Assembly: GCA_040221175.1 (NCBI GenBank) | Contig: JAVJVK010000019.1 | Location: 372,001-436,000, forward strand | Reading direction: 5' to 3' | Source: Phycisphaerales bacterium | Lineage (GTDB): Bacteria; Planctomycetota; Phycisphaerae; Phycisphaerales; UBA1924 | Length of the DNA stretch: 64,000 nt | The notes under the pieces: model-generated | Seen by the model: only the letters and a program-made list of their open reading frames with translations | Told to the model about the DNA's origin: nothing | Database searches by the model: none | In this document: positions 3,808 to 47,420 of the stretch, piece after piece | Position numbering within the stretch: position 1 is the first letter of the stretch | Layout of the letters: each line of letters starts with the position of its first letter | Translations under genes and position numbers: made by a program

Positions 3808-5124
3808 TCAGCAGCCGGTGGCGAACAGGTTCTGAAACTCCAGGAAGTCAAAGATGTTGAAGTCGCCGTCGCCGTTGATGTCCGCCTGGGCCTCGCCCTG
3901 GTCGAACGCGGTCTGGAACGCCAGGAAGTCGAAGATGGTCAGGTCGCCATCGCCGTCGAAGTCGGCCACGCACGGAGGCAGCACGTCCAGCGCCGCCTCG
4001 GCATTCACCAGGCCATAGCCGAAGTCGCCGTCCCAGCCCGGGCTGCCCAGGTCGATGGCCGTATCGATCATGAACTGGCGGACCTCGTCGTTGATGCGCC
4101 CGTTGCCGTTGGTGTCCTGGATGCCAGCGCCGATGATCAACGCCGCCACGCCAACGGCGTGGGGCGTGGCCATGGACGTGCCGTCGAGGTTGCCGTACGA
4201 GTCATCGCGGTTGGAGGTCGTGGAGTAGACGTCCACGCCCGGCGCCACCAGTTCGAGGTTCGTCCCACCCTGCGAGAAGCTCGCACGACGATCGCGGCTG
4301 TCGATGGCGCCCACGGCGATCACGCTGTCGTAGCGTGCGGGCACGCCGATGGGCGCGCCCCCGCCGTTGCCCGACGCCGCAAAGTGGATGATGCCCGCGT
4401 CCCAGGTGTTCTGATACGCCGATTCAACGAGCGAGGAATCGCCCAGCGTGAAGCTGCTGTTGGTGACCTGGATGCCGTTGTCCAGCGCCCACTGCAGCGC
4501 GTTGATGGCGCCCGACGCCGTCGGTGCGAACGTGCCGACCTTCAGCATGTACAGGTCGGCTTCCGACGCCACGCCGACGATGTTCGAACCATTGGCAACC
4601 GCCGCGACGCTGCCGCTGACGTGCGTGCCGTGGCTGAACGGGTCGCTGAAATCGTCGCTCATGATCGAGAAGTCGTATCCGAACACGAAGTTGTCGGCGA
4701 TGTCTTCGTGGGTGTGCCGCAGGCCCGAGTCCATGACGCCCACGGCCACGCCCGTGCCCCGCTGTCCGCCGGTGTGCGTGTTCTCGCAGCCAACGCGGCG
4801 CACGCCCCACACCTGGTCATACTCGGTCGTGTACTGGCCGATGCCGTTGGGCTCCACGCCCACCACACGGGCATCGAGCGCACGCAGCTGAGCCTCGGCC
4901 CCGGCGGGCAGGCTCGCGTGCATGCCCGGCGCCACCGTCCAGACCTGGTGTACGACGCCGCCAAGCGACTCGACCAGCGCCACGTCGGCGGGGGTCGGGT
5001 TGCTGACGAACTCGATGAGCACGTCGGCCATCGGGGTCACGGTCTCATCGGCCTGGGCGGTCGAGCCCAGAGGGCCACACACGGACAACACGGCCGCGGC
5101 GGCGGTCAGTCGGGCAGGCTGCAT
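3808..5124 (-). CDS. Secreted S8 subtilisin-like protease with dockerin-like tail
   Basis: A 438-residue secreted serine endopeptidase. A signal peptide (about residues 1-25, ending STAQA) is followed by an inhibitor-I9-like propeptide (about 33-93). The S8 catalytic domain has Asp132 (VMDSG), His165 (SHGTH), oxyanion Asn253 (SGNG) and Ser317 (GTSMATPH), so the triad is complete. Residues 385-438 form two EF-hand/dockerin-like calcium loops (DFDGDGDLT and DINGDGDFN, each followed by FDFL.FQ) ending in Gly-Cys. The same tail occurs on six other secreted proteins in this window. It is transcribed toward gltX with 36 bp between, and divergently from the EF-G gene across 347 bp. A role in extracellular protein degradation or surface processing is inferred. 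Confidence 0.93.
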   Translation of the reverse strand: MQPARLTAAAAVLSVCGPLGSTAQADETVTPMADVLIEFVSNPTPADVALVESLGGVVHQVWTVAPGMHASLPAGAEAQLRALDARVVGVEPNGIGQYTTEYDQVWGVRRVGCENTHTGGQRGTGVAVGVMDSGLRHTHEDIADNFVFGYDFSIMSDDFSDPFSHGTHVSGSVAAVANGSNIVGVASEADLYMLKVGTFAPTASGAINALQWALDNGIQVTNSSFTLGDSSLVESAYQNTWDAGIIHFAASGNGGGAPIGVPARYDSVIAVGAIDSRDRRASFSQGGTNLELVAPGVDVYSTTSNRDDSYGNLDGTSMATPHAVGVAALIIGAGIQDTNGNGRINDEVRQFMIDTAIDLGSPGWDGDFGYGLVNAEAALDVLPPCVADFDGDGDLTIFDFLAFQTAFDQGEAQADINGDGDFNIFDFLEFQNLFATGC

Positions 5125-13007: not shown

Positions 13008-13556
13008 ATGTGTCAGACGCCGGAGAATTGGCACGCAGAGCTTCTGCATCAATGCCGAGCGGGCGATCAGCGCGCTTGGGCGGAGCTGGTGTCCGAGTTC
13101 GGGCCGCTGGTTTTCGCCGTTGCACGACGCGTTGGCTTGTCCGAGGACCGCTGCGAGGATGCGGCGCAGTCAACTTTTGCCGCACTTGCGAGCAACCTCC
13201 GACGGATCAAGGAGCCTGCGGCATTGCCAGGGTGGCTCGCAACGACCGCTCGTCGGGAAGCAGTTCGGATATCGAAAGATGTCGCCAGGCGGCGCGGCAA
13301 TCCGCTCGCCAATGAGCCGGAGGCTCCACCCGAGCATGCATGGCTCGATGAACTCGAGACTCATCAGCGATTACGAACGGCTTTCGGCAAACTCGGGCCT
13401 GCGTGTCGCAATCTGCTCAGGGCCCTGTACTTTGAAGGGACATCGCCCGACTACCGGGGTGTTGCCGAGCGTCTGGACATGGCCGTGGGCAGTATCGGTC
13501 CTACTCGGCAACGTTGTCTCTTGAGACTGGCCGAAATCTTTACGGGGTCTCCCTGA
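13008..13556 (+). CDS. ECF-like sigma-70 family RNA polymerase sigma factor
   Basis: A 182-residue two-domain sigma factor. Region 2 (about 10-90) contains GDQRAWAELVSEFGPLVFAVARR and DAAQSTFAALASNL, and region 4 (about 118-178) has PDYRGVAERLDMAVGSIGPTRQRCLLRL, a helix-turn-helix that would read the -35. There is no C-terminal extension and no classical membrane anti-sigma gene next to it. Instead a small protein, a TPR-CHAT protease and a subtilase follow in order within one apparent operon. The SIGPTRxRCL ending is a variant I associate with sigma factors next to CHAT genes, from memory. It probably directs a small regulon, possibly its own operon, when released by the downstream proteolytic partner. 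Confidence 0.88.
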   Translation: MCQTPENWHAELLHQCRAGDQRAWAELVSEFGPLVFAVARRVGLSEDRCEDAAQSTFAALASNLRRIKEPAALPGWLATTARREAVRISKDVARRRGNPLANEPEAPPEHAWLDELETHQRLRTAFGKLGPACRNLLRALYFEGTSPDYRGVAERLDMAVGSIGPTRQRCLLRLAEIFTGSP

Positions 13557-13637
13557 TTTTTTGCCCTGCCGAGGGAAAGGTCGCGATCTTGCGGCATGCT
13601 GCTGTATCAGCAGGCGGCTGAATACCTCTAAAGGGGC

Positions 13638-14186
13638 ATGATGGACCATCAGGACATCCCGCCAGAGATCGCCGATCCGCTCCGTCGCGCAGCGGCGCTT
13701 GAGCCGTTGTTTGCCGTTGACCGTGGCGTGCTCGATCGCATCGCGGCCGCGACCGCGCCGACGACGCCCGGCAACCTGGCGAATTCCCTGGGAGAGTTGG
13801 TCTTGACGCTCGTCGAAGGTTCCACCGGCGGCCTGCGACCGGCATATCGCGCCGGTGTGAATCCGACGCACGCCGTTCGCAAGATGACCTTTGCGGCCGG
13901 CGGCCTCCGGCTCTCGCTCATGCTTGACCCCGGGACACCCGGGCTGCCGCTGGACCTGCCGGCAGCGTACCGGGTGCTCGGCCGTGTCTTGGGGGCCAAA
14001 GCCATGCAGGACTGCGCGGTGCGATTCCGGTCGTCGCAAGGCGTCAAGGCTACAACCCTCGATTCGCATGGGTTCTTCGAATTGACGCTCGATCCGGGCG
14101 TGTACCGGTTGGAAATCGCGTTGTCGGACCCGGAGACGCAATTGGTCGTGCCACAACTCGACGTTGGGACCAGCGGAGTCGAGTAA
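13638..14186 (+). CDS. Small protein of sigma/CHAT module, beta-rich C-terminus
   Basis: A 182-residue protein without signal peptide or membrane segment. The N-terminal half is helical (PPEIADPLRRAAALEPLF). The C-terminal half (about 118-178) looks like a small beta-sandwich: CAVRFRSSQGVKATTLDSHG then FFELTLDPGVYRLEIAL resembles carboxypeptidase-regulatory or transthyretin-like folds with the G-x-Y-x-L strand. I cannot name a family. It lies between the sigma factor (81 bp upstream) and the TPR-CHAT gene (3 bp downstream), so it is a good candidate for the substrate or adaptor linking protease to sigma factor, by analogy with Csx30 between sigma factor and TPR-CHAT in type III-E CRISPR loci. 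That role is inference. Confidence 0.75.
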   Translation: MMDHQDIPPEIADPLRRAAALEPLFAVDRGVLDRIAAATAPTTPGNLANSLGELVLTLVEGSTGGLRPAYRAGVNPTHAVRKMTFAAGGLRLSLMLDPGTPGLPLDLPAAYRVLGRVLGAKAMQDCAVRFRSSQGVKATTLDSHGFFELTLDPGVYRLEIALSDPETQLVVPQLDVGTSGVE

Positions 14187-14189
14187 TCC

Positions 14190-16946
14190 ATGGGCTCCGT
14201 GCTCGACCAGATTGAGGTCGTGTTGACGCGGAAGAGCACGCGGCCGGACGAACTGCGCGCATTGGCCAGCGATCTCAAGCAACTCGCGCTAACCGACCTG
14301 AAGCAAGCCGTGACAATCGCCGAGCGTTTGGCCAGCCTGCCGGTGGCCGATGATGCGCTGGCCGTTGATTTGCTTACCGCCCGGGCACACGTCCTGAGCT
14401 ATGCCACCCGATTCGATGACGCGACGAGCCTGCTGACCCAAGCTGCACGGATCGCTGACCGCACCGGCGATATCGGCGCTTTGGCCCAAGTCCGGCTCAC
14501 GGCGGTGCAACCGTTGGCCCGCGCCGGGCGGTTCGAGGAAGCCCAGCACGCCGCCGAGGCCGCCTGCGATGCGTTTTCCGCTCGCGACGATTCGATTGGT
14601 CAGGGCAAGAGCAAGCTGAATCTGGGCATCGTCCTTCGCATGCGCGGCCTGCCGTCGGATGCCTTGCAGGCATTCAATGCCGCATTGCCGATGCTGGCCG
14701 AAGAACCCCTGCTGCTGGGCGCGCTCTTCAGCAATCGTGCCGAGGCAATGCTGGATCTCGATCTGTTCGGTGAAGCCGAAGAGTCATTCCTGGCGGCACG
14801 CGAGGCCTTTTCTACGGCCGGCAACGAGCATGGGGCGGCGATCGTGGAAGGCAACCTGGCGGATCTGTTCGCTCGCGAGGGCCGCCTCGACGCAGCGCTG
14901 GAGCGTTTCGAGCTTGCGCGCCAACATTTCGAGGCCAGTGGTGCGACCGCCGACGTAGCTCGCCTGGACGCCGAAAGTGCCGAAGCCATGGCGATGCTGG
15001 GCGCGCGCGATGCCGCCATCACGACGCTCAGCCAGTGCCTGCCCCAATTGAGCACCGCTGGACTGGTGCGCGAGTGGCGGCGCGGCCAATTCGCCCTGGC
15101 CTGGTGCCTGCTCACCGGCGGACACGATGGTTCGGCCCGAGACGTCATCCACGCGTTGCTCGGAAACCTTGGACCGGAGGAGCCTGTCTTGCGTGCCCAA
15201 TGCGAATTGGTGCTCGCCGTGCTGGACATTCGCTTTGGTCGCGCTGCGACTTCCGATCGGGCATCGGCCATCCTCGAAGCACTGGGCGACAGGCCCTTGC
15301 GTCTGGCACAGGCCCACGCGTGGCTGGCCGACGCAATGATCCGCGCCGGGAACTTCGACCGTGCCGATACGCACCTTCAAGCACTGGGTGCAAGCCGACT
15401 GGCAATGTCGATGTCGGCTCTACGAGCCCAACACGGACACCTGAGCGGCAGGCTGTTGCAGGCTCGCAAGAAGACCGCTGAGGCAGCGGAAGTGCTCCGC
15501 GAAGCGATGCTGGAGGCCGAACGCATACGCGGGGCCCTGCGTGCTGATCGCTGGCGGACCGCCTGCGGCCAATCGTGGCGCGATGCCTACCTTGACGCAA
15601 TGTCGGCATCGCTGGACTCGGGCGATGTAGGAAACGCGCTGGACGCACTCGAGCGCGTGCGCGGCCGATCGCTCCACGAAGCAATGGGTTCGCAAGCCTT
15701 GGCCCGGGCACAGGACCCAGAACTGCATGAGAAACTCGAGGCCCTGAACGTGCAGTACGCACGGCTGGAAGCCGATGGCGACGCCTCGAGCATGGCGGCG
15801 AAGATCGCCCAACTCGAAGACGGCATCGAGCGGCTTCGTATCCGCAGAGATGCGGTGGGTCAGCCGCGACCTCTTTCGGTCGACCCGCTGCCGCTGGAGA
15901 CCATCCGGGAGCGATTGCCCAGAGGCGCCGCGATCCTGGAGTACTTCCAGGAGGGCCGCGACGTGGGCGTGTTCGTTCTCCGGTCCGACGGCGTGCGCGT
16001 GCATCGCTGCATCGCGGGCGAGCAGCAGGTGCGAAGCGGTCTCTCGCGATTGCTGTTCGCCGTCGAATTCGCCGTTGACGATGAAGCCGAGCGTCGTGCG
16101 AGCGGCGAAGGGGAAGAGGTCGGCCCACGCAACGAGTCGGAGCAACGCGCCAACAGTCAGCTCTGGCGTTCCGCCGCCGACAACCTTTCCAGATTGCTCC
16201 TGCACCCCCTTGCGCCGGACCTGGAGGGCATCGACACGCTGGCCATCAGCCGGCCAGCAAGCCTGGAGGGCGTACCCTGGGCCGCCTTGCCCTGGGGAGA
16301 GTCGATGCTGCTGGCGCAATTCGTGGTGCGTTCGACGCCCAGCGCGAGCGTCGCCGTTCGGCCGCGAGAATCCGTATCACTGTCGGACGTGCTCGCCGTG
16401 GGCGTCGACGATGCGCTCGCACCGCGGATGGGTGAAGAGGCGGCATTGGTGGCCCAGCAGACCATTGGGCATGCACTGATCGGAAGGGACGCGACGACGA
16501 AGCGCGTCCTGGCAGCCATCGAGACGGCGGATGTGGTGCATCTCGCAACGCACTGCGTTTTCTCTCCCCGGCATCCGATGGCCTCGCGGCTGAAGCTGGC
16601 CGACCGATGGCTGAGCGCCTACGAGCTGGCCGCGGCCATCCGGCCGGGAGCTCGCATCGTGCTGGCCGGGTGCGAGACTGGGCGCGCGGGCGGAGTCAAC
16701 ACCGAGGATCGCACGGGGCTCGTCAGCGCCCTGCTGGCCAATGGAGCCGCGGAGGTGCTGAGCACCCATTGGCCGCTGCATGATTCGAGCGCTGCACGGA
16801 TCTTCGAGGCGATGTACGCCCAGCTCACATCGGGTTCGGCGGCCTCGCTTGCACAGGCGCTGGGGCGAGCACAGCTTCAGGCCGAAAGAGAAGGCATGTC
16901 GCCGTGGCACTTCGCGGCGTTGCACGTCACGGGAGGGATGACATGA
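14190..16946 (+). CDS. TPR-repeat CHAT-domain cysteine protease
   Basis: A 918-residue cytoplasmic protein. Residues about 40-500 are tandem helical pairs of TPR type with A/L/G/Y pattern (for example FEEAQHAAEAACDAFSARDD and SKLNLGIVLRMRGLPSDALQ). The C-terminal ~280 residues form a CHAT (caspase HetF associated with TPRs) domain. The catalytic dyad is visible: His788 in VVHLATHC and Cys828 in VLAGCETG, each after a hydrophobic strand. A later THWPL segment is also typical. HLATHC has Cys where HLATHG is usual. CHAT proteases are activated by an upstream sensor and cleave specific partners. Start 14190 is 3 bp after the previous stop; the end overlaps the subtilase start by ATGA, showing translational coupling. 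Confidence 0.93.
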   Translation: MGSVLDQIEVVLTRKSTRPDELRALASDLKQLALTDLKQAVTIAERLASLPVADDALAVDLLTARAHVLSYATRFDDATSLLTQAARIADRTGDIGALAQVRLTAVQPLARAGRFEEAQHAAEAACDAFSARDDSIGQGKSKLNLGIVLRMRGLPSDALQAFNAALPMLAEEPLLLGALFSNRAEAMLDLDLFGEAEESFLAAREAFSTAGNEHGAAIVEGNLADLFAREGRLDAALERFELARQHFEASGATADVARLDAESAEAMAMLGARDAAITTLSQCLPQLSTAGLVREWRRGQFALAWCLLTGGHDGSARDVIHALLGNLGPEEPVLRAQCELVLAVLDIRFGRAATSDRASAILEALGDRPLRLAQAHAWLADAMIRAGNFDRADTHLQALGASRLAMSMSALRAQHGHLSGRLLQARKKTAEAAEVLREAMLEAERIRGALRADRWRTACGQSWRDAYLDAMSASLDSGDVGNALDALERVRGRSLHEAMGSQALARAQDPELHEKLEALNVQYARLEADGDASSMAAKIAQLEDGIERLRIRRDAVGQPRPLSVDPLPLETIRERLPRGAAILEYFQEGRDVGVFVLRSDGVRVHRCIAGEQQVRSGLSRLLFAVEFAVDDEAERRASGEGEEVGPRNESEQRANSQLWRSAADNLSRLLLHPLAPDLEGIDTLAISRPASLEGVPWAALPWGESMLLAQFVVRSTPSASVAVRPRESVSLSDVLAVGVDDALAPRMGEEAALVAQQTIGHALIGRDATTKRVLAAIETADVVHLATHCVFSPRHPMASRLKLADRWLSAYELAAAIRPGARIVLAGCETGRAGGVNTEDRTGLVSALLANGAAEVLSTHWPLHDSSAARIFEAMYAQLTSGSAASLAQALGRAQLQAEREGMSPWHFAALHVTGGMT

Positions 16947-18199
16947 AGAGGAAACCGAATCTGCTTCTGATTTTTGTGCTGGCGACGCTGCTGCCGGCCA
17001 TGGTGGCGCTCGGCGACGACGATGAGGTCGTGCCCGGGCAGGTGGTCGTGCGATTCGCTCCCGGGGCCGACATCCCCGGCTTCCTCGCCCGATGGCGGGC
17101 CGAGTACGGGGCCGAGATCATCACGCGGACCACCAGCCGCCCGATCTACCTCTTGAGCGTCTTCGAGGGCGATGAGGAAGAGTTCGTCGACGACGTCGAG
17201 TTCGACCCCGCCCTCGACTGGGCCGAGCCCAACTACTTCGGGCGTGACGAGAATCCAGATCCGGGCACCCAGAGCATCTTCGTGGCCAGCACGTCCGGAG
17301 CGTTCCAGTCCCAGCCCGCCATGAAGGCCCTGGGCGTGGACGCGGCCCAGCGTTTCGCCACCGGCCGGGGCATCGTCGTCGCCGCGATCGACTCGGGGCT
17401 GGACCCCGCACACCCGGTGCTTGCGGGCAAGCTCGCCCCGGGCGGCTGGAACTTCATCACGGGCACGCCCGACGTTGCCGACGTGGGCGACGGCATCGAC
17501 AGCGATGGCGACGACCTGATCGACGAGTCGGTCGGCCATGGCACGATGGTCGCCGGCCTGATCGCACGAATCGCACCGGACGCGAACATCCTTCCCCTGA
17601 AAGTCCTGGACAGCGACGGGCTGACCAACACCTTCCTGATGGTCGAGGCGATCTTCTACGCCATCGACAACGGCGCCCATATCGCCAACGTCTCGATGGG
17701 CACGACGCGCCAGACGCTGGTCATCGACGCGGCCCTGGCCGAGGCACGCGACGCCGGCATGCTGGTCGTCGCCAGCACCGGCAACGAGGACGACAGCAAC
17801 CCACGCTTCCCGAGCGGATCATCCGACGAATCGGGCTTGGGCCTGGGCGTGCTGGCCGTGGCCGCGGTGGACGACGACAACCGCCGCGCCGAATTCAGCA
17901 ACTACGGCCCGCATGTGTCCCTGACGGCGCCCGGCGTGGACATCACCAGCACCACGCCCGGCGGCGGGTATGGCCGCGCCAATGGCACCAGCTTCGCCGC
18001 CCCGATGGTCGCGGCGGGCGCTGCGTTGTACTGGTCAGGGGCGCCCGACGCCTCGGCCGGGAGCGTGCGTGATCGGCTGCTGGCCTTCACGGTGGACGTC
18101 TCCGCGCAGAATCCGAGCTTCGACGATGAGCTCGGCGCCGGCCGGCTGCACGTGTTGTGGCCTGTCAAGGGCGTCGAGCTCCGACGCGACCAGCGCTGA
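16943..18199 (+). CDS. Secreted S8 subtilisin-like protease of the CHAT module
   Basis: A 418-residue exported serine protease. A signal peptide MKRKPNLLLIFVLATLLP covers about residues 1-24. An I9-like propeptide (about 28-95, VPGQVVVRFAPGADI) precedes the S8 domain with Asp150 (AIDSG), His199 (GHGTMVAG), oxyanion Asn281 (STGNE) and Ser350 (GTSFAAPM). All catalytic residues are intact. Unlike the subtilase at 3808 it has no dockerin-like tail and ends soon after the last helix. The ATG at 16943 overlaps the TPR-CHAT stop (ATGA), so the two are made together even though one is cytoplasmic and the other exported. A hairpin with a T-run about 40 bp downstream closes the operon. Confidence 0.93.
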   Translation: MKRKPNLLLIFVLATLLPAMVALGDDDEVVPGQVVVRFAPGADIPGFLARWRAEYGAEIITRTTSRPIYLLSVFEGDEEEFVDDVEFDPALDWAEPNYFGRDENPDPGTQSIFVASTSGAFQSQPAMKALGVDAAQRFATGRGIVVAAIDSGLDPAHPVLAGKLAPGGWNFITGTPDVADVGDGIDSDGDDLIDESVGHGTMVAGLIARIAPDANILPLKVLDSDGLTNTFLMVEAIFYAIDNGAHIANVSMGTTRQTLVIDAALAEARDAGMLVVASTGNEDDSNPRFPSGSSDESGLGLGVLAVAAVDDDNRRAEFSNYGPHVSLTAPGVDITSTTPGGGYGRANGTSFAAPMVAAGAALYWSGAPDASAGSVRDRLLAFTVDVSAQNPSFDDELGAGRLHVLWPVKGVELRRDQR

Positions 18200-18238
18200 G
18201 CATCCAGGCTTTCCACCACGTCGCGCTCGTTTTCCTTG

Positions 18239-18265
18239 GCGGCCCCCGGAGGCCGTTCTCTTTTT
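18239..18265 (+). terminator. Rho-independent terminator after the sigma/CHAT/subtilase operon
   Basis: A short G/C stem (CGGCC at 18240-18244 with GGCCG at 18251-18255) is followed by TTCTCTTTTT. It lies 40 bp past the subtilase stop and delimits the module. Confidence 0.65.
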
Positions 18266-18387: not shown

Positions 18388-19509
18388 ATGACTCGCACGA
18401 ACACGCTTTCGACCCTCGCCGGCCTTGCACTTGCCAGCCTTGCCACCGCTTCGCCCGTCGACCCCGTGTACACCGTCACCTTCGACGACTGCATCACCAG
18501 CGACAACCAGTACGTCGGCCCCGACGGCGAGCTGCGCTGGGACGTGGACGCGGGCTGCGACATCTACCAGACCGACCTGTACGAGCGGCCCATGGCCCAG
18601 GCCTTCGACCTCTTCCGCGGCCGCTTCGGCGCCAAGGAATACTTCGAGTACCTCGACATCGCCCAGGCCCGCGCCGGCTTCGACGACCGCTACCTGTACG
18701 TCTCGATCAAGCTCGCCGGCCGCGACCTGCTGACGAGCGGCGGCGACCGCAACGAGCAGGGCCTGGTCGAGCGCTACGGCTTCACGCTCAGCACCGACGC
18801 CGACGGCCGCTTCGGCGTGCTGCTGGTTGCCGACCAGCCCGAGCTGAAGATCGACCCCGTCACCGTCTTTGGCACCACCGGCGTCTTCGGCTACCGCGAC
18901 ACCGACGGCGATGTGGGCGGCGCGGCCGATTCGGGGCCCACCGGGCGCGACGTCACCAAGACCGACAACCCCCAAGAAGAGAGCGGGCTGAACGGCTACG
19001 ACACGGCCATCATCAGCGACGGCGTGCTCGACGCGACCAGCCGGGAGGTCCTGTTCGTCCGCCTCAGCCCAACCGACGACACCGTCGTCGAGTTCGCCCT
19101 CGACTACGCCGCGCTCGGCTTCACGCAGGACGACCTTCGCACCATCGGCTCGTTCGAGATCGAGGCCATCAAGGGCGGGCCCAAGGACCCCCAGAACTAC
19201 CGCTTCAACGACAAGTACAGCGCGGTGGAGGCCGGCTCGCCCAACCCCGGCATGGGCGGCACGAGCGAGTTCGGCACCGAGGGCCTCGAGGCCATCTACG
19301 AGATGGACACGGTTCGCGGCGGGCCGATCGACGGCGGCGCCGTGTGCCGGGCCGACTGCGACGGCGATGGCGCGCTGAGCATCTTCGACTTCCTGTGCTT
19401 CCAGAACCTCTTCGCCGCGGGCGACCTGCGGGCCGACTTCGACGGCGATGGCGCCCTGACGCTGTTCGACTTCCTGGCGTTCCAGAACGCCTTCGACGCG
19501 GGCTGCTGA
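18388..19509 (+). CDS. Secreted protein with dockerin-like tail
   Basis: A 373-residue exported protein. The signal peptide is about residues 1-21 (ending LATASP). The mature part (about 25-310) is acidic, with repeated beta-strand patterns such as FDDRYLYVSIKLAGRDL and TVVEFALDYAALGF. This looks like a carbohydrate-binding or surface beta-sandwich module, but no family is recognised. Residues about 320-373 are two dockerin-like loops (DCDGDGALS and DFDGDGALT, each with FDFL.FQN) ending FDAGC. AAGGAG nine bases upstream supports the start. It follows the terminated CHAT operon across 188 bp and is convergent with a DUF1772-type gene. The function is unknown; attachment or sorting through the tail is inferred. 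Confidence 0.85.
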   Translation: MTRTNTLSTLAGLALASLATASPVDPVYTVTFDDCITSDNQYVGPDGELRWDVDAGCDIYQTDLYERPMAQAFDLFRGRFGAKEYFEYLDIAQARAGFDDRYLYVSIKLAGRDLLTSGGDRNEQGLVERYGFTLSTDADGRFGVLLVADQPELKIDPVTVFGTTGVFGYRDTDGDVGGAADSGPTGRDVTKTDNPQEESGLNGYDTAIISDGVLDATSREVLFVRLSPTDDTVVEFALDYAALGFTQDDLRTIGSFEIEAIKGGPKDPQNYRFNDKYSAVEAGSPNPGMGGTSEFGTEGLEAIYEMDTVRGGPIDGGAVCRADCDGDGALSIFDFLCFQNLFAAGDLRADFDGDGALTLFDFLAFQNAFDAGC

Positions 19510-21508: not shown

Positions 21509-24500
21509 TTAATCCCGCCTGTTTCGCTCTACGACAGCCACCAACTCGCGCCCCAGCGTCTGCGGGTCCCGACACGGGTGGAAATCCCATCGCCCGAGTT
21601 TGCCCCAGTTGTTGACCGCCCGGACCCACTGGCGGGCCGCGTCGTACTTGGCCGTGTCCTGCGGCGTCTCGTAGCCCTTGACTTCGAGCACGAGCGTCGT
21701 GTCGTCGCTCATCCGCACGAGGAAGTCCGGCTCGAAGCCGTGCTCGACGTTCATGTGCTCGTAGGGAATCGAGAACTCAAGCCCGTCCGTTCTCGCGTAG
21801 AACTTGATCGTGCCTGCCCTCGCCGCTTCTTCGAGCCGGAAGGCCGCGCTGCTCTCCCATGCTTGCGTATCGAGCACGACCTGGTTCACGTGGCTGAACG
21901 TCGTGCCGTGCACCGCTCGCTTGGTTGTGAAGTTGATGTCGTCGGTGCTGCCCAGCGGCTTGGTCTTGTTGAGCACCGGGAGCAGCGGCGACTCGCCCTG
22001 CCCGTCGTCCGGCTCAATAGCGGCGGCCAGCCGCTCAACGACCTGCTGGGCGTATCGCTGCAAGGCGATCTCGGCTCTTGGCTCGTCGCGGTAGTTGACC
22101 TTGCGTGACAAATACTCATCGACGTAGCGGTAGACCTGCGGGAAGAGCATGTGCCGCGACTGCAGCTTCATGACCCTGGCTTTGCGTTCACTGTCGGGGC
22201 CCGCGGAAGCCCCAGACAGCAGACGGTCGATCACGCGTCGCGTGAACTCAAACGCGATCGTCTGGCTGTGGTTCGCCGCGTAGTACGCCGCCCGATCCTG
22301 CTTGACGGTCTCAAAGGCGCCCGCCGTCGCGGTCGAGGGCCCCTCGCTCACGCCCGCCGCCACTCGCACAAAGGTCGCCGTCGGCTCCCGGTGCGGCTCC
22401 AGTTCGAGCACCTCCATCGAGTCGATATCGCAGCGGATCAGGTTCTGCCGCAATGCGTACACGTAGCCCTCAACTACCGGGAACTGCATGCGGAAGGCCG
22501 ACCGCTCGTCGAGCGCCCGCACGTGGTTCAGCGGCCGGTCATCGTCGTCCGGGGTGCCCGTTGCCTTGCCCTTGTAGGGAATCACCGAGAAGGGGATGCC
22601 GTAGACGTCGACGTGCTCGGGCGGGAGCAAACCCGTGGTCGGGTCTGGGCGGTAGTTCATCCGGCGCAAGCCGCGGCCGACGACCTGCTCGCATAGCAAC
22701 TGGCTGCCGAAGGCGCGCACGCCGAGGATGTGGGTCACGTTGTTGGCGTCCCAGCCCTCGGTCAGCATCGACACCGAGACCACGCACCGCACATGCTCGC
22801 CCGGCTCGCCCTTCTTGCCCACGGTCGCCACGACCCTGCGGAGCGCCTGGGCCGCGTCGTCCTTACTCTTGCCCGGTATGCCGCTTTCGGCCTCGGCCAG
22901 CAGCTTCGAATCGATGCGGATGGTGTACTTGCGGTGCGCGGTATTGGACAGTGCGTCCGGCTGCACCTCGCCCTGCCCGTACGCCGTACGCGTCTTGGGC
23001 TTGGCGGCCTTCTTGCCCCGCTTGGGTTTGGCCTCTTCCTCGTCTTCCTCGTCGGCGTCGAGTTCCTGTTCGACGTCCTCGCGCGTCACCACCTCTTCGG
23101 TCGTCTCGCCGCTGATGCGGCGGTAGAACTCTTCGGCGATGTCGGTGTTATCGCACACGATGATGAGCACGGGCGGCACGCGCTCCTGGCCCTGCTCGGC
23201 CGCTTGCACCATGTCGAACCGCGTTCGCCACTCGCCGGCGAGTTGCTGGAGCGCGGCCTCGGCCTTCTCGTAGACCACGTGTGGCTTCGGCTTGCCCTGC
23301 TTGCCCGGGAGCTTCTGGCCCGGTTGCAGGTCGGCCACGATGTGGTCCTTCCACAGCCGGAAGTACTTGGGATCGGGCCGCCCGGTCGTATCCTGCACCG
23401 GCAAACGCGGGATCTTGACGATCCCGCTCTCGATGGCGTCCACCAGCCCGAAGTCGCTGACCAGCCAGGGGAAGGGCAGGCCCTCGGGGTAGTCGCTGCC
23501 CTGGATGTAGAAGGGCGTGGCCGACAGATCGACGCACAGGCCCACGCACGGCACGCCCGCACCACGCAGGCCGCAGTTGTTGAGGCGGTCGAGCCCGTCG
23601 AGCCAGACGCGGGCCTCTTCCTTTTCAGTCTTGAGATCGCCCTCGGTGGCGACGCGCTCCTCGCCGTCCTTCTTGCGCGAGCCCTTCACCGGGTTGGGGT
23701 TGGGCCGCCAGCAATGGTGCCCCTCGTCGTTGAGCACCATGATGGGCATGCGCGACGTGGCGGCGTCGCCCAGGATGCGGCGGGCGAAGCTAGCGGGGTC
23801 TTCCTCGCCCTTGTCGACCGCCTGGTACGTCTTGCCACCCTCGCTGTGCGGCGAGGCGGGCTGGAACTGGTGCCAGTTCTCGACGATGACCGTGCCGCGG
23901 TTGAGGTAGTCGCGATACTTGGCGGGCACCATGCCGAAGTCGTCGTAGTAGTTCTTGTCATCGCCGGGGCGGAGCACCTGCAAGCGCTCCTTGACGGTCA
24001 GGTTCGGGCAGCACACCAGCACCACGTCGGGGAAGTGCTCGCTGTGCGGGTTCACGCCGCGGTTGCACAAGGCCCAGGTGATGAGCATGGCCATGACGAC
24101 CGTCTTGCCCGATCCGGTGGCCATCTTGCAGCCCAGGCGGCGCAGGCCCAGCAGGCTCTCGTCGGCGGGTTGATCGAGCAGCGTGGGGTAGAACTCGGCG
24201 CTCTCGGTGCCGAACCGCGGGTCCTCGCCCTTGCACAGACGGCGCAGGTGCTCGTCGGTCACCTCGAAGTTGCCGAAGCCCGTGCGGCTGCGCGATGGCT
24301 GGCCGGGCGTTGAGCGTGCCGATTCGGGCAGGCGGATCTCGGCCAGGTAGATCAGCGTCTCGACGGCCTCACGCTGGCAGAAGAACAGGCGGCGGAAGCC
24401 GCCCTTGGCCGTGCCCTTCTCGCGTGACCAATGCCGGAGCAGGTCCTTGGTAACGGTGGTCGAGCCGCGGTAGCCCGATTTCCGCCAGCGGCGAACATCC

Positions 24501-24730
24501 TTCCGAAGACGGTTGACGAGTTCAAGGAGGTCTTGGTCCTCGTCAGGAAAGATCTGCGTCTGCGAGGTACCGACGCGTTCGGTCTTGTACCAGTACGCCG
24601 CGTCCCGTCGGAATCCCGCGCGGTAGGCCTCGCCGCTCTCGCGGCGGTAGAGCCAATGGTCGTTCGGCTCCGCGTAGGGGTTGCAGAGGATTGGGGAAGC
24701 GACGGGCTGTATCGGTGTGGCACTAGTCAT
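21509..24730 (-). CDS. Type III-like restriction endonuclease, Res subunit
   Basis: A 1073-residue superfamily 2 helicase-nuclease. Walker A is ATGSGKT at 204-210, the DExx box is DEGH at 335-338, LSATP follows near 404, and motif V/VI is ..TEGWDANNVTHILG then EQVVGRGLRR. Near residue 1000 a PD-(D/E)xK-like nuclease core is visible (EPDFLVRM, then LVLEVKG). Length and order match the BPTD_3080-type Res family of type III-like systems. It would translocate on DNA and cleave unmodified sites with Mod. It overlaps the PIN gene by 8 bp, so all four genes 30157-21509 read as one operon. A low-complexity acidic/basic insert (EEDEEEAKPKRGKK) interrupts the middle. Confidence 0.9.
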   Translation of the reverse strand: MTSATPIQPVASPILCNPYAEPNDHWLYRRESGEAYRAGFRRDAAYWYKTERVGTSQTQIFPDEDQDLLELVNRLRKDVRRWRKSGYRGSTTVTKDLLRHWSREKGTAKGGFRRLFFCQREAVETLIYLAEIRLPESARSTPGQPSRSRTGFGNFEVTDEHLRRLCKGEDPRFGTESAEFYPTLLDQPADESLLGLRRLGCKMATGSGKTVVMAMLITWALCNRGVNPHSEHFPDVVLVCCPNLTVKERLQVLRPGDDKNYYDDFGMVPAKYRDYLNRGTVIVENWHQFQPASPHSEGGKTYQAVDKGEEDPASFARRILGDAATSRMPIMVLNDEGHHCWRPNPNPVKGSRKKDGEERVATEGDLKTEKEEARVWLDGLDRLNNCGLRGAGVPCVGLCVDLSATPFYIQGSDYPEGLPFPWLVSDFGLVDAIESGIVKIPRLPVQDTTGRPDPKYFRLWKDHIVADLQPGQKLPGKQGKPKPHVVYEKAEAALQQLAGEWRTRFDMVQAAEQGQERVPPVLIIVCDNTDIAEEFYRRISGETTEEVVTREDVEQELDADEEDEEEAKPKRGKKAAKPKTRTAYGQGEVQPDALSNTAHRKYTIRIDSKLLAEAESGIPGKSKDDAAQALRRVVATVGKKGEPGEHVRCVVSVSMLTEGWDANNVTHILGVRAFGSQLLCEQVVGRGLRRMNYRPDPTTGLLPPEHVDVYGIPFSVIPYKGKATGTPDDDDRPLNHVRALDERSAFRMQFPVVEGYVYALRQNLIRCDIDSMEVLELEPHREPTATFVRVAAGVSEGPSTATAGAFETVKQDRAAYYAANHSQTIAFEFTRRVIDRLLSGASAGPDSERKARVMKLQSRHMLFPQVYRYVDEYLSRKVNYRDEPRAEIALQRYAQQVVERLAAAIEPDDGQGESPLLPVLNKTKPLGSTDDINFTTKRAVHGTTFSHVNQVVLDTQAWESSAAFRLEEAARAGTIKFYARTDGLEFSIPYEHMNVEHGFEPDFLVRMSDDTTLVLEVKGYETPQDTAKYDAARQWVRAVNNWGKLGRWDFHPCRDPQTLGRELVAVVERNRRD

Positions 24731-25547
24731 CGATTACCGGCGGGGGGTGCAGAGCATAATCTGTCGGATGAGCCGATGCTGAGCTCTCCAGCAACTCGGA
24801 TTCGCTACGTTCATCTTCCTCGGTCACAACAACATCGAGAAGCTTCATTGCCTCCGTGAGTCGATCCGTAAGAGACACTCGTCGCTGAAGGGTGGTTCGA
24901 GATCGAAACTCTTGGTCCAGCCAATCGTTGATGTAGGATTGTCGGTCTAGCGTGATGCCATAGTCCCCGTCCCTAGAGACGATTATCACGTGTCGCGACG
25001 TGACGTTTGAGCAGTGGATCACCCACTCCCAGTTAATGGCATCGCCAATCGACGTGTCATTAGTTTTGCGTGGCGGGTAGCCGAGCATGAATCGCTTCCA
25101 CGCCCGACGACGAACGTCTTTCTTTTCATCTCGGTCACGCCGCAGGTTCGTTATCGCCTTGCACTTGAAGAGCCTTTGTGCAGATTGATACACTGGATCT
25201 TCGCCCGTCGGATTCAGCATAAGCTTTTTCGTGCGCTCGTGAAGCCTTTTCAAGCCGTCATTAATCTCGGCCTCCCTACTACGAATCGCGCCTACGGTCT
25301 TCGCGCCCTTCAAAAAGGCGGGCGGAGTTGGAGCGGAGACCTTGCTCTTGAAAGCGCTCAGAGCTTCCAGGATAGCTCGCTGCCGATTCTTCTTGAACTC
25401 CATCTCAACCTGATAGCTAGTGATAAGTGACTCGTGCAGCTTGTCGATCTTTTCCAGCAGCTCGATCTGCATCTCGTTGCGGGCTCTGTAGAAGTCCAGC
25501 AGAATATTCGTATCGATGAAGACTAGCGGGGGAGTTGCACTTGCCAC
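24723..25547 (-). CDS. PIN-domain protein (DUF4935-like) within RM operon
   Basis: A 274-residue protein. Residues about 8-20 read LVFIDTNILLDFYR with the first PIN acidic residue Asp12. A helical middle (about 30-140) is rich in K/E/R. Residues about 165-215 include INWEWVIHC and VIIVSRDGDYG, matching the second half of PIN_8/DUF4935 RNases with acidic residues. It is predicted to be a metal-dependent ribonuclease or structure-specific nuclease. The start is GTG at 25547. It lies 30 bp after the DUF262-HNH gene and overlaps res by 8 bp. Its base composition is much more A/T-rich than flanking housekeeping genes. No paired antitoxin is seen, so it is probably an effector of the system rather than a plain VapC toxin. 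Confidence 0.8.
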   Translation of the reverse strand: MASATPPLVFIDTNILLDFYRARNEMQIELLEKIDKLHESLITSYQVEMEFKKNRQRAILEALSAFKSKVSAPTPPAFLKGAKTVGAIRSREAEINDGLKRLHERTKKLMLNPTGEDPVYQSAQRLFKCKAITNLRRDRDEKKDVRRRAWKRFMLGYPPRKTNDTSIGDAINWEWVIHCSNVTSRHVIIVSRDGDYGITLDRQSYINDWLDQEFRSRTTLQRRVSLTDRLTEAMKLLDVVVTEEDERSESELLESSASAHPTDYALHPPPVIDD

Positions 25548-25577
25548 GAGTTGAGGTTCCTTGGCGGCCGAATGCTC

Positions 25578-26909
25578 TCAGCGGCGAACAGGTCGACCGC
25601 GCTTTGGTGCCGCCCGATTGCCCTTGGATGTGTTACACCGAGCACAAAGCACTTGCCCGTTTTCCACGCCCGTCCGCCCGCCACGCGAGTGCGGCTTGAC
25701 GTGGTCCGCATGGTAGTTGTCCCAGGTCACTTCCTCTTTACACCCGACGCAAACGGGTGCCTTGGCGCTGTTCCAGATGAGACGACGTTGCACCGGATTG
25801 AAGGCACGGACGGTGTCCTTCTCTTCAAACACGTTTTCGAGAAGATCGCTCAGGATCTTGTGTCGCTTCTTACGGTTTGCAAGCGCATCCGCACCCTCAC
25901 GGGTTGACATGAAGTAGGCGCTCAGCTCTGGATCGACGTTTCGGGGCATCTGCAGGTTACGCTGCCGCTCGGCCAATTCGTCCAACCTCATCGCCAGTCG
26001 CTTTAAGATGCTCGCCGCCTGCCCGCACCTCTTAGCGGAACGCGTTGACAGATGGCGGCGATGCAACTCGTCGAGCACGATGACCAGTGAATAGAAATCG
26101 GACACCTGCTTGAACCGGGTCGCCTTCATGTCTGGCAGGATTCTTTCCGCCGTCCGAACCGCCTGTCCGAGTTCCGACGCGGCTTGCTTGATTTGTTTGG
26201 CCGTGAATCCCGAGTTTGCCATCGCTCGGTCGAGAGCCGCCTTCTTGTGCTGCGGACCCTGCTGAATGATCGCCACGAGCAACTCCGAAACGAGTTCGAC
26301 GTCTCGCATCCGCTTCCGCTGCGGCTCGCTCACTACGCCCATGTGCTGAAGCGCTTCGCCATGTCTGACGGCGAGCCGCTGCGCCTCCTTGAGCAACGGG
26401 CTTTGGAGGAACTGCGCGTGCCTCTGTTCCTGGCGGGTCAGCTTCTGCCCAGTGCTGTTGATGCGAACGAACAGGTCCACGATCGCGGACATGTCACCCT
26501 CGACTTCCACCGCCTGCATCTCGTAACCACGAAAGACGGCTTCGTGGCCCCACTCCTTGATGTCCCGCCATTCGTAGCGGTACATACCGTCATCCTCGGG
26601 AAACTGGTACTTCACGTCAAAACCGTCCCTCGTGAAGCCCTTTGCCCGCATGAACATGAAGATCGATTCAATCCGCTGCTTGCCGTCTAACACGTCGTAG
26701 ACCGGACGGCCGCGCTCGCTCCGTCGATACAGGAAGATCGATGGCACCGGCATTCCGTCGAAGATCGAGGTGATGAGTTTCTGGCGGTCGCTTTGCCTCC
26801 AGACGCTCTTTCGCTGAAAGCCCGGGTTCAGGTTCAGGCGTCCGGCCTCTTGCATGTCCACAAGGTCTTGGACGGTGTACGTACGAAATCGCCGCTCAAG
26901 CATGCTCAC
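25578..26909 (-). CDS. DUF262 / HNH endonuclease (GmrSD-like)
   Basis: A 443-residue protein. The N-terminal DUF262 domain (about 10-180) has LNLNPGFQRKSVWR and DGKQRIES at 75-82, the ParB-like NTP-hydrolysing motif of the GmrS half of GmrSD systems. A helical middle follows. The C-terminal 57 residues are an HNH nuclease: CVGC at 387-390, HADHVKPHSRGG from 400, then CARCN closing a zinc knuckle. GmrSD enzymes cut modified phage DNA; here the HNH is of the zinc-finger type, not DUF1524. The start is GTG at 26909, overlapping the mod stop (GTGA), or the ATG two codons later. It is more A/T-rich than its neighbours. It may guard against phages that escape RM by DNA modification. Confidence 0.85.
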   Translation of the reverse strand: MSMLERRFRTYTVQDLVDMQEAGRLNLNPGFQRKSVWRQSDRQKLITSIFDGMPVPSIFLYRRSERGRPVYDVLDGKQRIESIFMFMRAKGFTRDGFDVKYQFPEDDGMYRYEWRDIKEWGHEAVFRGYEMQAVEVEGDMSAIVDLFVRINSTGQKLTRQEQRHAQFLQSPLLKEAQRLAVRHGEALQHMGVVSEPQRKRMRDVELVSELLVAIIQQGPQHKKAALDRAMANSGFTAKQIKQAASELGQAVRTAERILPDMKATRFKQVSDFYSLVIVLDELHRRHLSTRSAKRCGQAASILKRLAMRLDELAERQRNLQMPRNVDPELSAYFMSTREGADALANRKKRHKILSDLLENVFEEKDTVRAFNPVQRRLIWNSAKAPVCVGCKEEVTWDNYHADHVKPHSRGGRTGVENGQVLCARCNTSKGNRAAPKRGRPVRR

Positions 26910-29900
26910 AACCCCACCACCTTCATCACCTCATTCCCCCGCGGATCGATCACTTTCACCGCCGCCCGCTTGTGCTTGCCGGGCGGGAAGGGCAGGCTCT
27001 CGGTCCCAGCAAGCGCCTCGAACCGCTCGTCGTCGATCACGCCCCCGCCCTTCGACCCCAGTGCCTTCGCCAGCTTCTCCCACGCCGAGCGGTCGGGGAA
27101 GAAGGCCTGGGTGATGCAGAAGGTGCGGCCGTCGTAGTCGCCATCGAGGAACCAGGCGGCGACCTTCTTGGCCCCCGTGGGCTCGATGGTGTTGCTCACA
27201 GGGTCGTAGATGTCCACGCCCTCCATCGTCACCACGTACTCGCCGTCCTCGTCGGGCCCCTCGATGCTCACGCGGGGCTGGCCGAAGACGGTGAAGAGCT
27301 GCTGGCTGCTCTTGCCGGTGCTCTTGGCGCCCTTGCCGCCCTTCTGCTTGTCGGGGTCCTTCAGCAGGCCGTCCATCGCCGGGTTGGCCGTGGGGCTGAT
27401 GTTGGACATGTGGATCTTCAGGTTGGGGTGCTGGGCTTCCTCGATGGCCGATTGGGCCATGCCGTCGAAGCTGAAGCCGGCGATCACCAGGGCGTCGTAG
27501 CCGGCGCGGTTGGCCGCCCGCACCAGGTCCTCGACCATCTTGGCCGTCACCGGGCCGTACTGGGGGCCGAAGGCCACGGCGACCTTGTCGGCAAGGACCG
27601 TGCCCTCGCCCTGCTCCATCCACTGGCCCTGGGCGTGGATCATGTCGCTGCGGCCATCCTCGAACAACGGCGTTAGCGGCTCGCCCTGCTCTTCGGATGC
27701 CCAGGCCATGTGCTTGTTGTTGGGGAAACGCACGCCGTCGTCGCGGATGAGTTGGAACATGCGGCGCAGGTAGGCCGCGGCGTTGGCGGCCTCGACGTCG
27801 CCGCGTGACTCGACCATACGGATCTCGCGCGGCATGTCCTCGTCGTCGAAGGCTTCCAGTTCTTCCGGCTCGCCCCCGAACCCGACGTCGACGACATCGC
27901 CCAGGCTCATCTCCGGCGGCTGCACGGCCTCGACGGTGAACGGCCCCGACACGCGGACCACGCCGGGCACCTTCTCGGGCTGGTCGACCAGTTCCTCCTG
28001 CGTCGCGTTGGCCTCGATGCAGGCGTTGACCTCGTCCATCTTGGCCCGCCAAGCCTTGCGATACGCGGTCACCGCGTCGGCCAGTCGTTTTGGATATGCC
28101 CCATCGGGCTCGAAGGGCACCTGCCAATGCTCCCAGCCCATGCCGCCTTCGGGCACGCTGCTTGGACCAACCTCGGCGGGCGACGGCACCTTGTCAACCA
28201 GCGAACGGATCTGCTTGGCCGTGGCCTTCTTCTTGGTGCCTTTCAACCCGTCGGCGACGCCCTGCTCGATGGTTTCCTGCTTCGTCCCGGGCAACAGCCA
28301 CTGGCGTTCATCGCCATGAGTCAGGCCACGCCAGCCGGCGCTGGCGATCTTGTAGCCGAGTTTGCGTGTGAGTGCCAGGTGGTTCTCATCGTTGATCTCG
28401 GTGATCGCCGCGTTGCACTCGGCTAGCGCCTTGTCGAGAATGGGCTGGTGCTTGGCGAAGATGGGATCGAGATTCGTGTCCTGGGCGATGGAGCCAAGCT
28501 TCACGTGCGGAACCGTGTTATAGACAAATCCACTATTTGGATCTGTTCCTGTAGCTTCATCGACGCCTTCGTTTGCAACCCGATAGTGCTCGTACTGATC
28601 TGTCAGCAACCGCTGTCTGGCGACGGCCACCGCGACGCGGCTAGTGTCTATGGTAATCCAACGTCGTCCCCATTGCTCGGCTACCGACGCTGTTGTGCCG
28701 GATCCGCAAGTGGGATCCAGGACAAGATCACCCGGATCAGTCGTCATAAGCATGCATCGTTTCACAGCTTCAGCGGCCGTCTGCACAACATACAGTTTTG
28801 ATTCCGATCTCGACTGGATGCCGCCAATGTCCGACCAAACGTTTGTAAGCTGCGAAGCTGGGAAGTCCTCAATGTAACGGATGTAGCTCGCAGTCTTGCC
28901 GGAAGGGGTCAACCGTTCCGCATCTCGCAACCTGAGAAGCCCCGACGGATTAGTCTTCCAGGTCTGCGAAAACTCGACGCCGTTTATGATTATCGAGTGC
29001 TCAGGATTGCCTTGCGAGGTCGCATTGTCTTCACGAAGAACACGCGCTCGCTCCGGAAGCACGTCGCTCCTTTCGTATCCGGCTTGTGCGAATGTGCGAC
29101 ATTCGCCGCTTTCGAACTCGATCGTATTGTATTTCTTGCTGGCACCTTCGATGGCATTCTTTAGCGAGTATAACCTGCGCAGCTTCATGTGGTCGCGATC
29201 GCGACAATACCAGATTAGGTAATCGGCAACGCCTTTCACAGACAAGCTACTACCGAAACCGCCGGTCTTCACAAATGCGATGATTGCTACGAACTGATTG
29301 GGCCCGAAGACCTCGTCCATGAGCATCCTGACTCGATGCTCATTCTCATCACTAATCTGCACAAAGACACTGCCCGAATCCGCCAGCAACTCCCTCGCGA
29401 CCGTCAACCGATCGCGCAGATACGACAAGTACGAGTGGATCCCCAGGTGCCACGTATCCCGGTACGCCCGCACCATCTCTGGCTCGCGTGTCAGATCCTC
29501 CTGCTTGTCCTTCACGTCGCGCTTGCCGACCTCGGGCTGGAAGTTGCTCGCGAACTTGATGCCGTAGGGCGGGTCGATGTAGATGCACTGGACCTTCCCC
29601 GCCAGATTCTCCCGCCGCGCAAGCGACGACATGACCTGCAGCGAGTCGCCCAGGATCAGCCGGTTGCTCCAATCGACCTGGTGCTTGTAGAACTGAACGG
29701 CCTCGTGGTACTCCTGCTGCGGGTCGGCGAAGAGCGTGCGCTCCACGTCCTGCCGGGCCGCCGCCCGCAAGATGGCCTGGGCGCTGACCCGCTCGTGGAT
29801 GTGCAGGGCCACGGGGTCGACCTCGAAGAACCCGCGCTGGTGTTGCTCGGCCTTCTCGGCCCACTCCAGCCAGGGCTCGCGCGCCTCGAGCGCCGCCCGC

Positions 29901-30157
29901 AGCGTGGCCGCCTCCTCGTCGCTCAGCGGCTGCTGGCGGGCCTTCTCCAGCAGCGCCACGTACTCGCCATCGGGGTCGAACCGCAGCGTGGGCGGCCGGT
30001 GCGGGCTGTACGCGTACCGGGCCTTGGGCAGCGCCGGCACCACCCCCTCGGCGGCGATCTTCGCCGGCGGGTTGTTGGCCCGCTTGTCCTTGGTGTGGCG
30101 GTAGTCGGCGGTGGTGGTCGACCCGCCAGACTTGCTGGAACGCTTCTTCTTGGCCAT
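26906..30157 (-). CDS. Type III-like DNA methyltransferase, Mod subunit
   Basis: A 1083-residue site-specific adenine methyltransferase of the beta class. Motif IV IDPPYG is near residues 194-199. A target-recognition region follows (about 205-470). The AdoMet motif I DLVLDPTCGSGTT lies near 478. The last ~500 residues form the Res-interaction and accessory region. The basic N-terminus (MAKKKRSSKSGG) precedes the core. The ATG at 30157 has AAGGA upstream; a GTG seven codons earlier also exists. About 28.5-29.36 kb, the recognition region, is visibly poorer in G/C than the rest, suggesting an exchanged specificity cassette. It is the first gene of the four-gene operon, divergent from the Z1 gene across about 160 bp that must hold both promoters. 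Confidence 0.9.
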   Translation of the reverse strand: MAKKKRSSKSGGSTTTADYRHTKDKRANNPPAKIAAEGVVPALPKARYAYSPHRPPTLRFDPDGEYVALLEKARQQPLSDEEAATLRAALEAREPWLEWAEKAEQHQRGFFEVDPVALHIHERVSAQAILRAAARQDVERTLFADPQQEYHEAVQFYKHQVDWSNRLILGDSLQVMSSLARRENLAGKVQCIYIDPPYGIKFASNFQPEVGKRDVKDKQEDLTREPEMVRAYRDTWHLGIHSYLSYLRDRLTVARELLADSGSVFVQISDENEHRVRMLMDEVFGPNQFVAIIAFVKTGGFGSSLSVKGVADYLIWYCRDRDHMKLRRLYSLKNAIEGASKKYNTIEFESGECRTFAQAGYERSDVLPERARVLREDNATSQGNPEHSIIINGVEFSQTWKTNPSGLLRLRDAERLTPSGKTASYIRYIEDFPASQLTNVWSDIGGIQSRSESKLYVVQTAAEAVKRCMLMTTDPGDLVLDPTCGSGTTASVAEQWGRRWITIDTSRVAVAVARQRLLTDQYEHYRVANEGVDEATGTDPNSGFVYNTVPHVKLGSIAQDTNLDPIFAKHQPILDKALAECNAAITEINDENHLALTRKLGYKIASAGWRGLTHGDERQWLLPGTKQETIEQGVADGLKGTKKKATAKQIRSLVDKVPSPAEVGPSSVPEGGMGWEHWQVPFEPDGAYPKRLADAVTAYRKAWRAKMDEVNACIEANATQEELVDQPEKVPGVVRVSGPFTVEAVQPPEMSLGDVVDVGFGGEPEELEAFDDEDMPREIRMVESRGDVEAANAAAYLRRMFQLIRDDGVRFPNNKHMAWASEEQGEPLTPLFEDGRSDMIHAQGQWMEQGEGTVLADKVAVAFGPQYGPVTAKMVEDLVRAANRAGYDALVIAGFSFDGMAQSAIEEAQHPNLKIHMSNISPTANPAMDGLLKDPDKQKGGKGAKSTGKSSQQLFTVFGQPRVSIEGPDEDGEYVVTMEGVDIYDPVSNTIEPTGAKKVAAWFLDGDYDGRTFCITQAFFPDRSAWEKLAKALGSKGGGVIDDERFEALAGTESLPFPPGKHKRAAVKVIDPRGNEVMKVVGL

Positions 30158-44840: not shown

Positions 44841-44865
44841 ACGCTTGGGCAGGAGCAAAGGACAC

Positions 44866-47409: not shown

Positions 47410-47420
47410 TGGAGTTTCAC

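Follow-up and report, generated by a model that had tools for sequence, protein, structure and literature searches.

A conserved four-gene operon of Planctomycetota as a candidate protease-gated sigma factor switch

A four-gene operon from a Phycisphaerales bacterium probably encodes a cytoplasmic, protease-gated ECF sigma switch that amplifies itself and has a subtilase as its output. The switch is well supported by comparison of homologous sequences and is unproven. As we picture it, an anti-sigma-like protein would hold the sigma factor, and the TPR superhelix of a TPR-CHAT protease would sense an internal ligand or partner. The CHAT domain would then cut the small protein after an invariant arginine in a flexible loop of its beta-sandwich; the inhibitor would fail after the cut and the sigma factor would be freed. 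The freed sigma factor would transcribe its own operon, at least in relatives with a conserved promoter, and the switch would thus be amplified, with the secreted subtilase as the main output.

Gene order and inheritance of the operon

The four genes lie on the forward strand of a 64,000-nt stretch of contig JAVJVK010000019.1 (the window). The first gene (13008..13556) encodes an ECF-type sigma factor of 182 aa with regions 2 and 4 and without region 3. It matches TIGR02937 (sigma70-ECF) at E 1.7e-16 and 60.3 bits (cut-off 42.9), and the best of the ECF sigma chains that its family profile recognizes in the PDB has E 1.7e-14. The second gene (13638..14186) encodes a small protein, also of 182 aa, which matched nothing in Pfam, NCBIfam or PADLOC at E 0.1; family alignment and the anti-sigma matches of its homologs place it in a putative soluble anti-sigma-like family. 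The third gene (14190..16946) encodes a TPR-CHAT cysteine protease of 918 aa (PF12770, E 8.7e-35, 121 bits against a cut-off of 24, plus TPR). The fourth (16943..18199) encodes a predicted exported subtilase of 418 aa (PF00082, E 6.8e-43; Peptidase_S8, 147.5 bits against a cut-off of 21.8), in which a Fervidolysin-type prodomain scores barely above its own cut-off. The genes are separated by 81 nt and 3 nt and then overlap at an ATGA, and a terminator-like hairpin with a T run follows at 18238..18257 (+). A hairpin scan of 7 kb returned five terminator-like sites compared to 3.3 in shuffled sequences, and the 18238-18257 hairpin by itself is weak. The gene order, spacing and hairpin had been described in an earlier reading made from the sequence alone (the sequence-only reading) and the coordinates agree with it; its assignments to the ECF sigma, TPR-CHAT and subtilase families were each borne out by a model score above cut-off. 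Both in the window and in several relatives, the sigma gene was overlooked by a codon-bias gene caller and recovered by profile searches of six-frame open frames. Start codons of the relatives were chosen by script.

CHAT matches were found in 30 of 151 genomes in a search that included the window's own genome. The locus set was assembled from the stretches around these matches and 36 named Planctomycetota loci, 15 of which duplicate the first set. It contains 53 distinct CHAT rows from the same class, 50 of them with upstream and 50 with downstream sequence. Rows cut by a contig end were excluded from the count on the affected side (L085, L096 and L118 upstream; L079, L084 and L128 downstream); a single split operon is entered as two rows (L084 and L085), and the sigma gene itself is truncated at the contig end in L106 and L111. 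Also excluded were L176 (a longer anti-sigma-like protein without CHAT), L092, the 15 duplicate loci and second CHAT-like frames in L066/L098 and L067. A sigma gene and a small gene lie upstream on the same strand in 50/50 in-class loci with upstream sequence, and a subtilase gene comes next on the same strand in 46/50 with downstream sequence. Among the exceptions, the subtilase gene is on the opposite strand in L075 and absent from L073, L119 and L121. The in-class loci were selected by CHAT, and the presence of the sigma, small and subtilase genes is therefore an independent result. In L092 (genome G037) the CHAT domain is part of a 2352-aa open frame (E 8.9e-14 with a single sequence, 1e-150 with the profile), and its surroundings yielded neither a sigma nor a small gene; counting this locus would give 50/51 in-class rows.

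Across the phylum, the small-protein profile gave some match in 223 of 392 genomes. From this search 18 loci were taken, mostly for matches spanning most of the profile; they were selected by the small protein and not by CHAT. CHAT is present in 17 of the 18, namely 16 loci outside the class (14 genomes, six families) and L173 from the window's own order. Fifteen of these 17 have the sigma gene on the same strand; in L161 and L175 it is divergent. The subtilase gene is downstream in eight, upstream of the sigma gene in six and unseen in three, two of which (L170 and L175) end at most 416 nt from CHAT. L163 and L173 have interrupted CHAT frames. Three of the 17 small genes were missed by the profile; at these loci an open frame is present whose motif looks similar by eye.

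The sigma factor gave a similar picture. With the best 21 candidates per genome scored, its profile identified 33 genes in 31 of 151 genomes (E 1e-25; weakest 4e-59). Thirty-two of the 33 adjoin the module, and the remaining one (G125) lies at the end of a contig, accompanied by a weak match to the small protein. On the same scoring, 29 genomes have both sigma and CHAT, two have sigma only (G096, whose CHAT is interrupted, and G125), one has CHAT only (G037) and 119 have neither. The sequence-only reading had asked for co-occurrence of the four families in Planctomycetes, and they are not independently distributed (50/50, 46/50 and 32/33 in the three counts above). The arrangement is far beyond chance because the genes travel together across genomes. 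Divergence of the four proteins is also correlated among 42 loci (r 0.63-0.77; shuffled maxima 0.16-0.25), which is expected for a jointly inherited set, and vertical descent alone would correlate too. In L086, L088 and L089 (also L120 and L128) a second, divergent sigma gene that matches the same profile adjoins the operon; in the first three it overlaps a gene of about 1300 aa by 4 nt.

At the genus level CHAT is found in the window's genome, as a single gene, and in one of six congeners. In the latter (G006, one of five congeners examined) the operon is on a contig other than that of the SpoIID neighbor, and the set is thus accessory. All five congeners examined share the conserved left flank around the upstream SpoIID gene and lack the operon at that place; the right flank has no match in them, so that no clean empty site was found. 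A single-sequence CHAT search of a genome contig collection confirmed no relatives. Such patchy spread (30/151 genomes, one of six congeners) could also be expected of a defense or self-killing module, in which CHAT and the subtilase would be effectors and the sigma pair would time their expression after infection or damage. The CHAT domain has a weak PADLOC match to BovA (E 2.2e-7) and restriction-like genes occur at 25.6-30.2 kb in the window. However, the N-terminus of the subtilase is signal-peptide-like, no CHAT match was found among 50,697 phage records, and the CHAT matches in 29 plasmid records are all partial, none covering 80% of the query. We regard a defense role as quite unlikely and retain the protease-gated switch.

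Anti-sigma-like protein, invariant arginine and CHAT protease

A soluble anti-sigma factor is the best interpretation of the small-protein family. Seven of 31 family members were matched at E 0.5 by the leading NCBIfam anti-sigma model (lowest E 6.5e-7), in the N-terminal part of those inspected; the other 24, including the window copy, were not. ChrR matches one of the 31 (1.4e-6), zf-HC2 four (best 0.0024) and CarboxypepD_reg six at E 0.5 (best 1.5e-4). When ten members were scanned singly, five matched an anti-sigma model at E 0.05 and five matched none. These anti-sigma matches are far under the curated cut-offs (29.6 vs 100 bits), and RskA in the PDB was matched only at E 0.19. Other proteins, most of them longer, were also matched in their N-terminal part by the phylum search; among ten such loci (L148, L150-L158) a sigma-profile gene is located just upstream in seven, and none was found within the approximately 150-670 nt of upstream sequence in L151, L152 and L157. 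As in class I anti-sigma factors, the small gene lies beside an ECF sigma gene (50/50 in-class rows with upstream sequence).

A read-through chain of the L098 sigma factor and small protein was modeled with AlphaFold2 (61 rows; mean pLDDT 86.4, pTM 0.64). The model consists of the sigma helices, a helical domain at 213-277 (block pLDDT 86-97) and a beta-sandwich at 299-414. Two fold searches with this fusion listed no anti-sigma domain, which proves nothing; one returned ECF sigma chains (best E 5.7e-3) and the other returned ECF sigma and beta-sandwich chains with middling Z scores. For sequence patterns, alignment A2 was too diverse and the seven-row alignment A5 was usable. A fused small-CHAT alignment (A7) was discarded as MAFFT placed the small-protein rows over the TPR part.

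The sequence-only reading had proposed that the small protein holds the sigma factor. This is plausible for the family, which looks anti-sigma-like, and is less certain for the window copy, in which the residues that make up helices 1-3 of most homologs are missing and the helix-4 segment, the Arg loop and the beta-sandwich region are kept. Six of 65 small proteins, including that of the window, have fewer than 50 residues before the helix-4 column (L061 would be the seventh if its ATG start is used). The N-terminal helices are lost and the rest is kept in the window copy and in L061, L081, L090, L120, L128 and L173. According to the available text of PMC7406223, class I anti-sigma factors contact sigma region 4 with helix 1 and region 2 with helix 4; on that basis the window copy may bind its sigma factor through helix 4 only.

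Site-1 proteases act on membrane anti-sigma factors. Such proteases raise the alternative that signaling begins with the subtilase, acting outside as a sensor protease, rather than with CHAT; the available text of PMC10028731 mentions DegS and RseA. No membrane segment was found in 79 of 79 small proteins by a crude hydropathy test (19-residue window, KD 1.9), and an exported protease is unlikely to reach a partner of this kind. The subtilase as sensor was rejected on this topology, and we consider it very improbable. The sequence-only reading had left the subtilase as sensor or output; the output role is the likelier and the sensor role is dropped. A cytoplasmic cut by CHAT is the reading that we follow below.

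The small proteins are strongly diverged (65 distinct homologs, median pairwise identity 22%), and an arginine is the only fully invariant column besides the start Met (65/65). It is followed by Gly or Ser in 51/65, and the motif around it is mostly [AP][GA][LFYV]R[GSA]. In L107 the invariant Arg may be either of two neighboring Arg residues. In the window it is Arg71 (codon at 13848..13850, +), as assigned by a refined alignment; the first alignment placed it four residues away. The candidate cleavage point is Arg71-Ala72. In the L098 model the Arg is residue 318 of the fusion and lies between strands 299-307 and 324-330, in a 10-residue block with a mean pLDDT of 65 (92 in both flanking blocks); the low loop pLDDT may reflect alignment noise. 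The conserved Arg loop fits a protease site. In the available text of PMC10028731, the cut in Csx30 falls within a flexible C-terminal-domain loop, the closest cut-site analogy for the Arg loop, and in an alanine scan no single Csx30 residue was essential to cleavage; a fixed P1 Arg would therefore differ from Csx29.

The CHAT protein is predicted to be an active cysteine peptidase with a His/Cys dyad in the CHAT domain. The sequence-only reading had described His788 and Cys828 as intact, which was confirmed and extends to the homologs. His788 (codon 16551..16553, +) and His784 are found in 66/66 distinct homologs and Cys828 (codon 16671..16673, +) in 65, the remaining one being a gap in an interrupted frame. 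Asp865 (codon 16782..16784, +) is present in 64/66; the two gaps are cut or interrupted frames. The CHAT-domain profile matches Csx29 (5.5e-13), DdvA (2.1e-9) and separase (2.1e-5) in the PDB. In an AlphaFold2 model of the window protein (pLDDT 85.6, pTM 0.80), the structural matches reached Z 32.5 for Csx29 (8eex, 501 residues, 7.1 A), Z 27.8 for separase (5fc2: Z 26.3, 323 residues, 3.4 A) and Z 20.8 for DdvA (8rw5, 597 residues, 7.2 A). Overall, the protein is closest to Csx29 and separase. Asp865 starts a helix in the model and aligns to an Asp in separase and DdvA and to a Ser in Csx29. The available text of PMC4626109 describes separase modeling in which an Asp of helix alpha-4, with a Glu elsewhere, was assigned to P1-Arg binding. 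Asp865 is probably the same residue, judged from the alignment, and it is a candidate S1-pocket acid for the P1 Arg. Residues 830-841, which follow Cys828, have pLDDT below 50 in the model; such low values might be expected if the stretch orders on activation.

Two alternatives bear on these residues. A single invariant residue may also mark an interface, and the other conserved columns, the G and F of a D..G.F motif, look structural. The Arg could then be structural or contact the sigma factor, and CHAT would cut elsewhere or cut another substrate. We find this unlikely for a residue that is followed by small residues in a loop modeled with low confidence and is accompanied by a CHAT domain with the separase-like Asp. 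The second alternative follows from the presence of DdvA, a transmembrane anti-sigma factor with TPR-CHAT, among both the sequence and the structure matches: the TPR-CHAT protein could bind the anti-sigma/sigma pair as a ligand-controlled scaffold without cutting, and release would come from binding. In the operon, however, CHAT is a separate gene, both His residues and the Cys are conserved in every homolog that reaches those columns, and the partner has an invariant Arg for which a scaffold would have no need. A DdvA-like sensor is thus unlikely, and cleavage of the small protein at the Arg loop is the mechanism that we prefer.

Promoter, proposed feedback and probable subtilase output

Of 49 regions upstream of the sigma gene, 14 carry the ECF-type promoter pattern [AG]GAG-N15-20-GATAC (mean 0.15 and maximum 2 in shuffles; 2/49 on the reverse strand of the same regions). 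The pattern was derived from these same regions, some of them from close relatives, and the excess is not a clean test. A matrix built from the 14 seed sites gave 19.4, 18.2 and 13.1 in three out-of-class operons that were not used in building it (1% null, 12.9). The conserved-type promoter was not found at the window operon (score 2.3), which is one of 35/49 upstream regions without it. A TAnACT box is present in 20/49. In six genomes the strict pattern occurs 16 times, compared to two for a reversed control; five of the six were picked because their operon site fits, and that match is by choice. The informative cases are G016 and G043, where the operon site is the sole strict-pattern occurrence in the genome. 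These sequence comparisons suggest that the operon itself is the best-supported sigma target, which makes the subtilase the likeliest output. In two related genomes, G062 and G512 (L198, L201), the strict pattern is also found 71 and 159 nt before a glycosyltransferase-like gene (by eye).

The subtilase of the window has the S8 Asp/His/Ser triad (D150, H199, S350), which is invariant in 29 aligned sequences. A hydrophobic, signal-peptide-like N-terminus was detected in 55/61 S8 homologs with a crude hydropathy window. A dockerin-like motif near the C-terminus is present in 22/61 distinct subtilases (L061-L091, L093-L128, L159-L175) and absent from that of the window; where present, it suggests surface attachment. 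A second S8 protease gene is located outside the operon at 3808-5124 (-).

Relation to known systems and genomic surroundings

CHAT/anti-sigma/sigma circuits are already known from Craspase and DdvA, and the four-gene set is a variant. The Craspase output (Csx29, Csx30 and CASP-sigma; available text of PMC10028731) likewise brings together a TPR-CHAT protease, a sigma inhibitor and an ECF sigma factor. The sequence-only reading had noted a type III-E-like gene order without cas genes or an array. This was upheld: no CRISPR array was found in the window (direct repeats of at least 23 nt, at most 300 nt apart), where only coding dockerin-like repeats were detected, and the RAMP/Cas7 model PF03787 has no match in the window's genome at E 0.01 (a control search matched in 4/14 genomes). 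Membership in type III-E CRISPR was rejected on these two results. The CHAT protein resembles Csx29, and with 22.2 bits against a cut-off of 300 for the Csx29 model NF041237 it is homologous and not a member. The operon also differs from Craspase in having Asp865 where Csx29 has Ser and in the added exported subtilase; Csx30 is not among the families listed for the small protein.

By entry titles and alignment, DdvA (8rot, 8rw5) likewise ties TPR-CHAT to sigma control. By entry titles it is a transmembrane anti-sigma factor in one chain, whereas the operon has separate genes and no clear membrane segment (one of 86 CHAT proteins is marginal at KD 1.92 with the 19-residue window); anti-sigma and TPR-CHAT are thus not joined in one membrane protein here. 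Separase has a caspase-like fold, a helical-repeat superhelix and the shared Asp in common with the CHAT protein, and a P1 Arg according to the available text of PMC4626109, but it acts in eukaryotic cohesin cleavage with different partners. The available text of PMC7406223 describes class I anti-sigma factors with a helical N-terminal domain, encoded beside an ECF sigma gene, of which about 35% are predicted to be soluble. Compared with these, the small protein would add a C-terminal beta-sandwich with a conserved Arg loop and a CHAT partner, and helices 1-3 are lost in the window copy and a few relatives.

We tentatively propose, as a possibility, that CRISPR-independent operons of Planctomycetota use an Arg-specific, separase-type TPR-CHAT protease to cut a conserved bait loop in a soluble anti-sigma factor, self-amplify through their own sigma promoter and release a secreted subtilase, and that type III-E systems took over a pre-existing circuit of this kind. 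If true, the operon would stand on its own, outside CRISPR, as a relative of the Craspase output pathway that is testable in many Planctomycetes, and would be a possible source of the type III-E CHAT/anti-sigma/sigma trio. The proposal predicts exactly which Arg is cut, which Asp belongs to the S1 pocket, which promoter is used and that the subtilase is the output. A literature search for an anti-sigma factor with a CHAT domain found the Craspase paper and none naming the gene set in its title or the start of its abstract; at the same level, a 2025 cyanobacterial paper concerns a CHAT domain and a sigma factor. The ECF group may still be present in the published ECF classification.

Two other gene groups were recorded in the window. 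A restriction-like group at 21509-30157 (-), approximately 3-12 kb from the operon, consists of a GmrSD/HNH endonuclease, an N6_N4 DNA methylase and a 1073-aa protein without a Pfam match at E 0.001. At 42441-52277 (+), four genes in tandem encode proteins of about 800 aa that match Rax2 and DUF6087, and three of the four also match DUF5122. Each of them ends in paired dockerin-like repeats spaced 81 bp apart, and such repeats are also found at 19351-19503 and 41308-41460.
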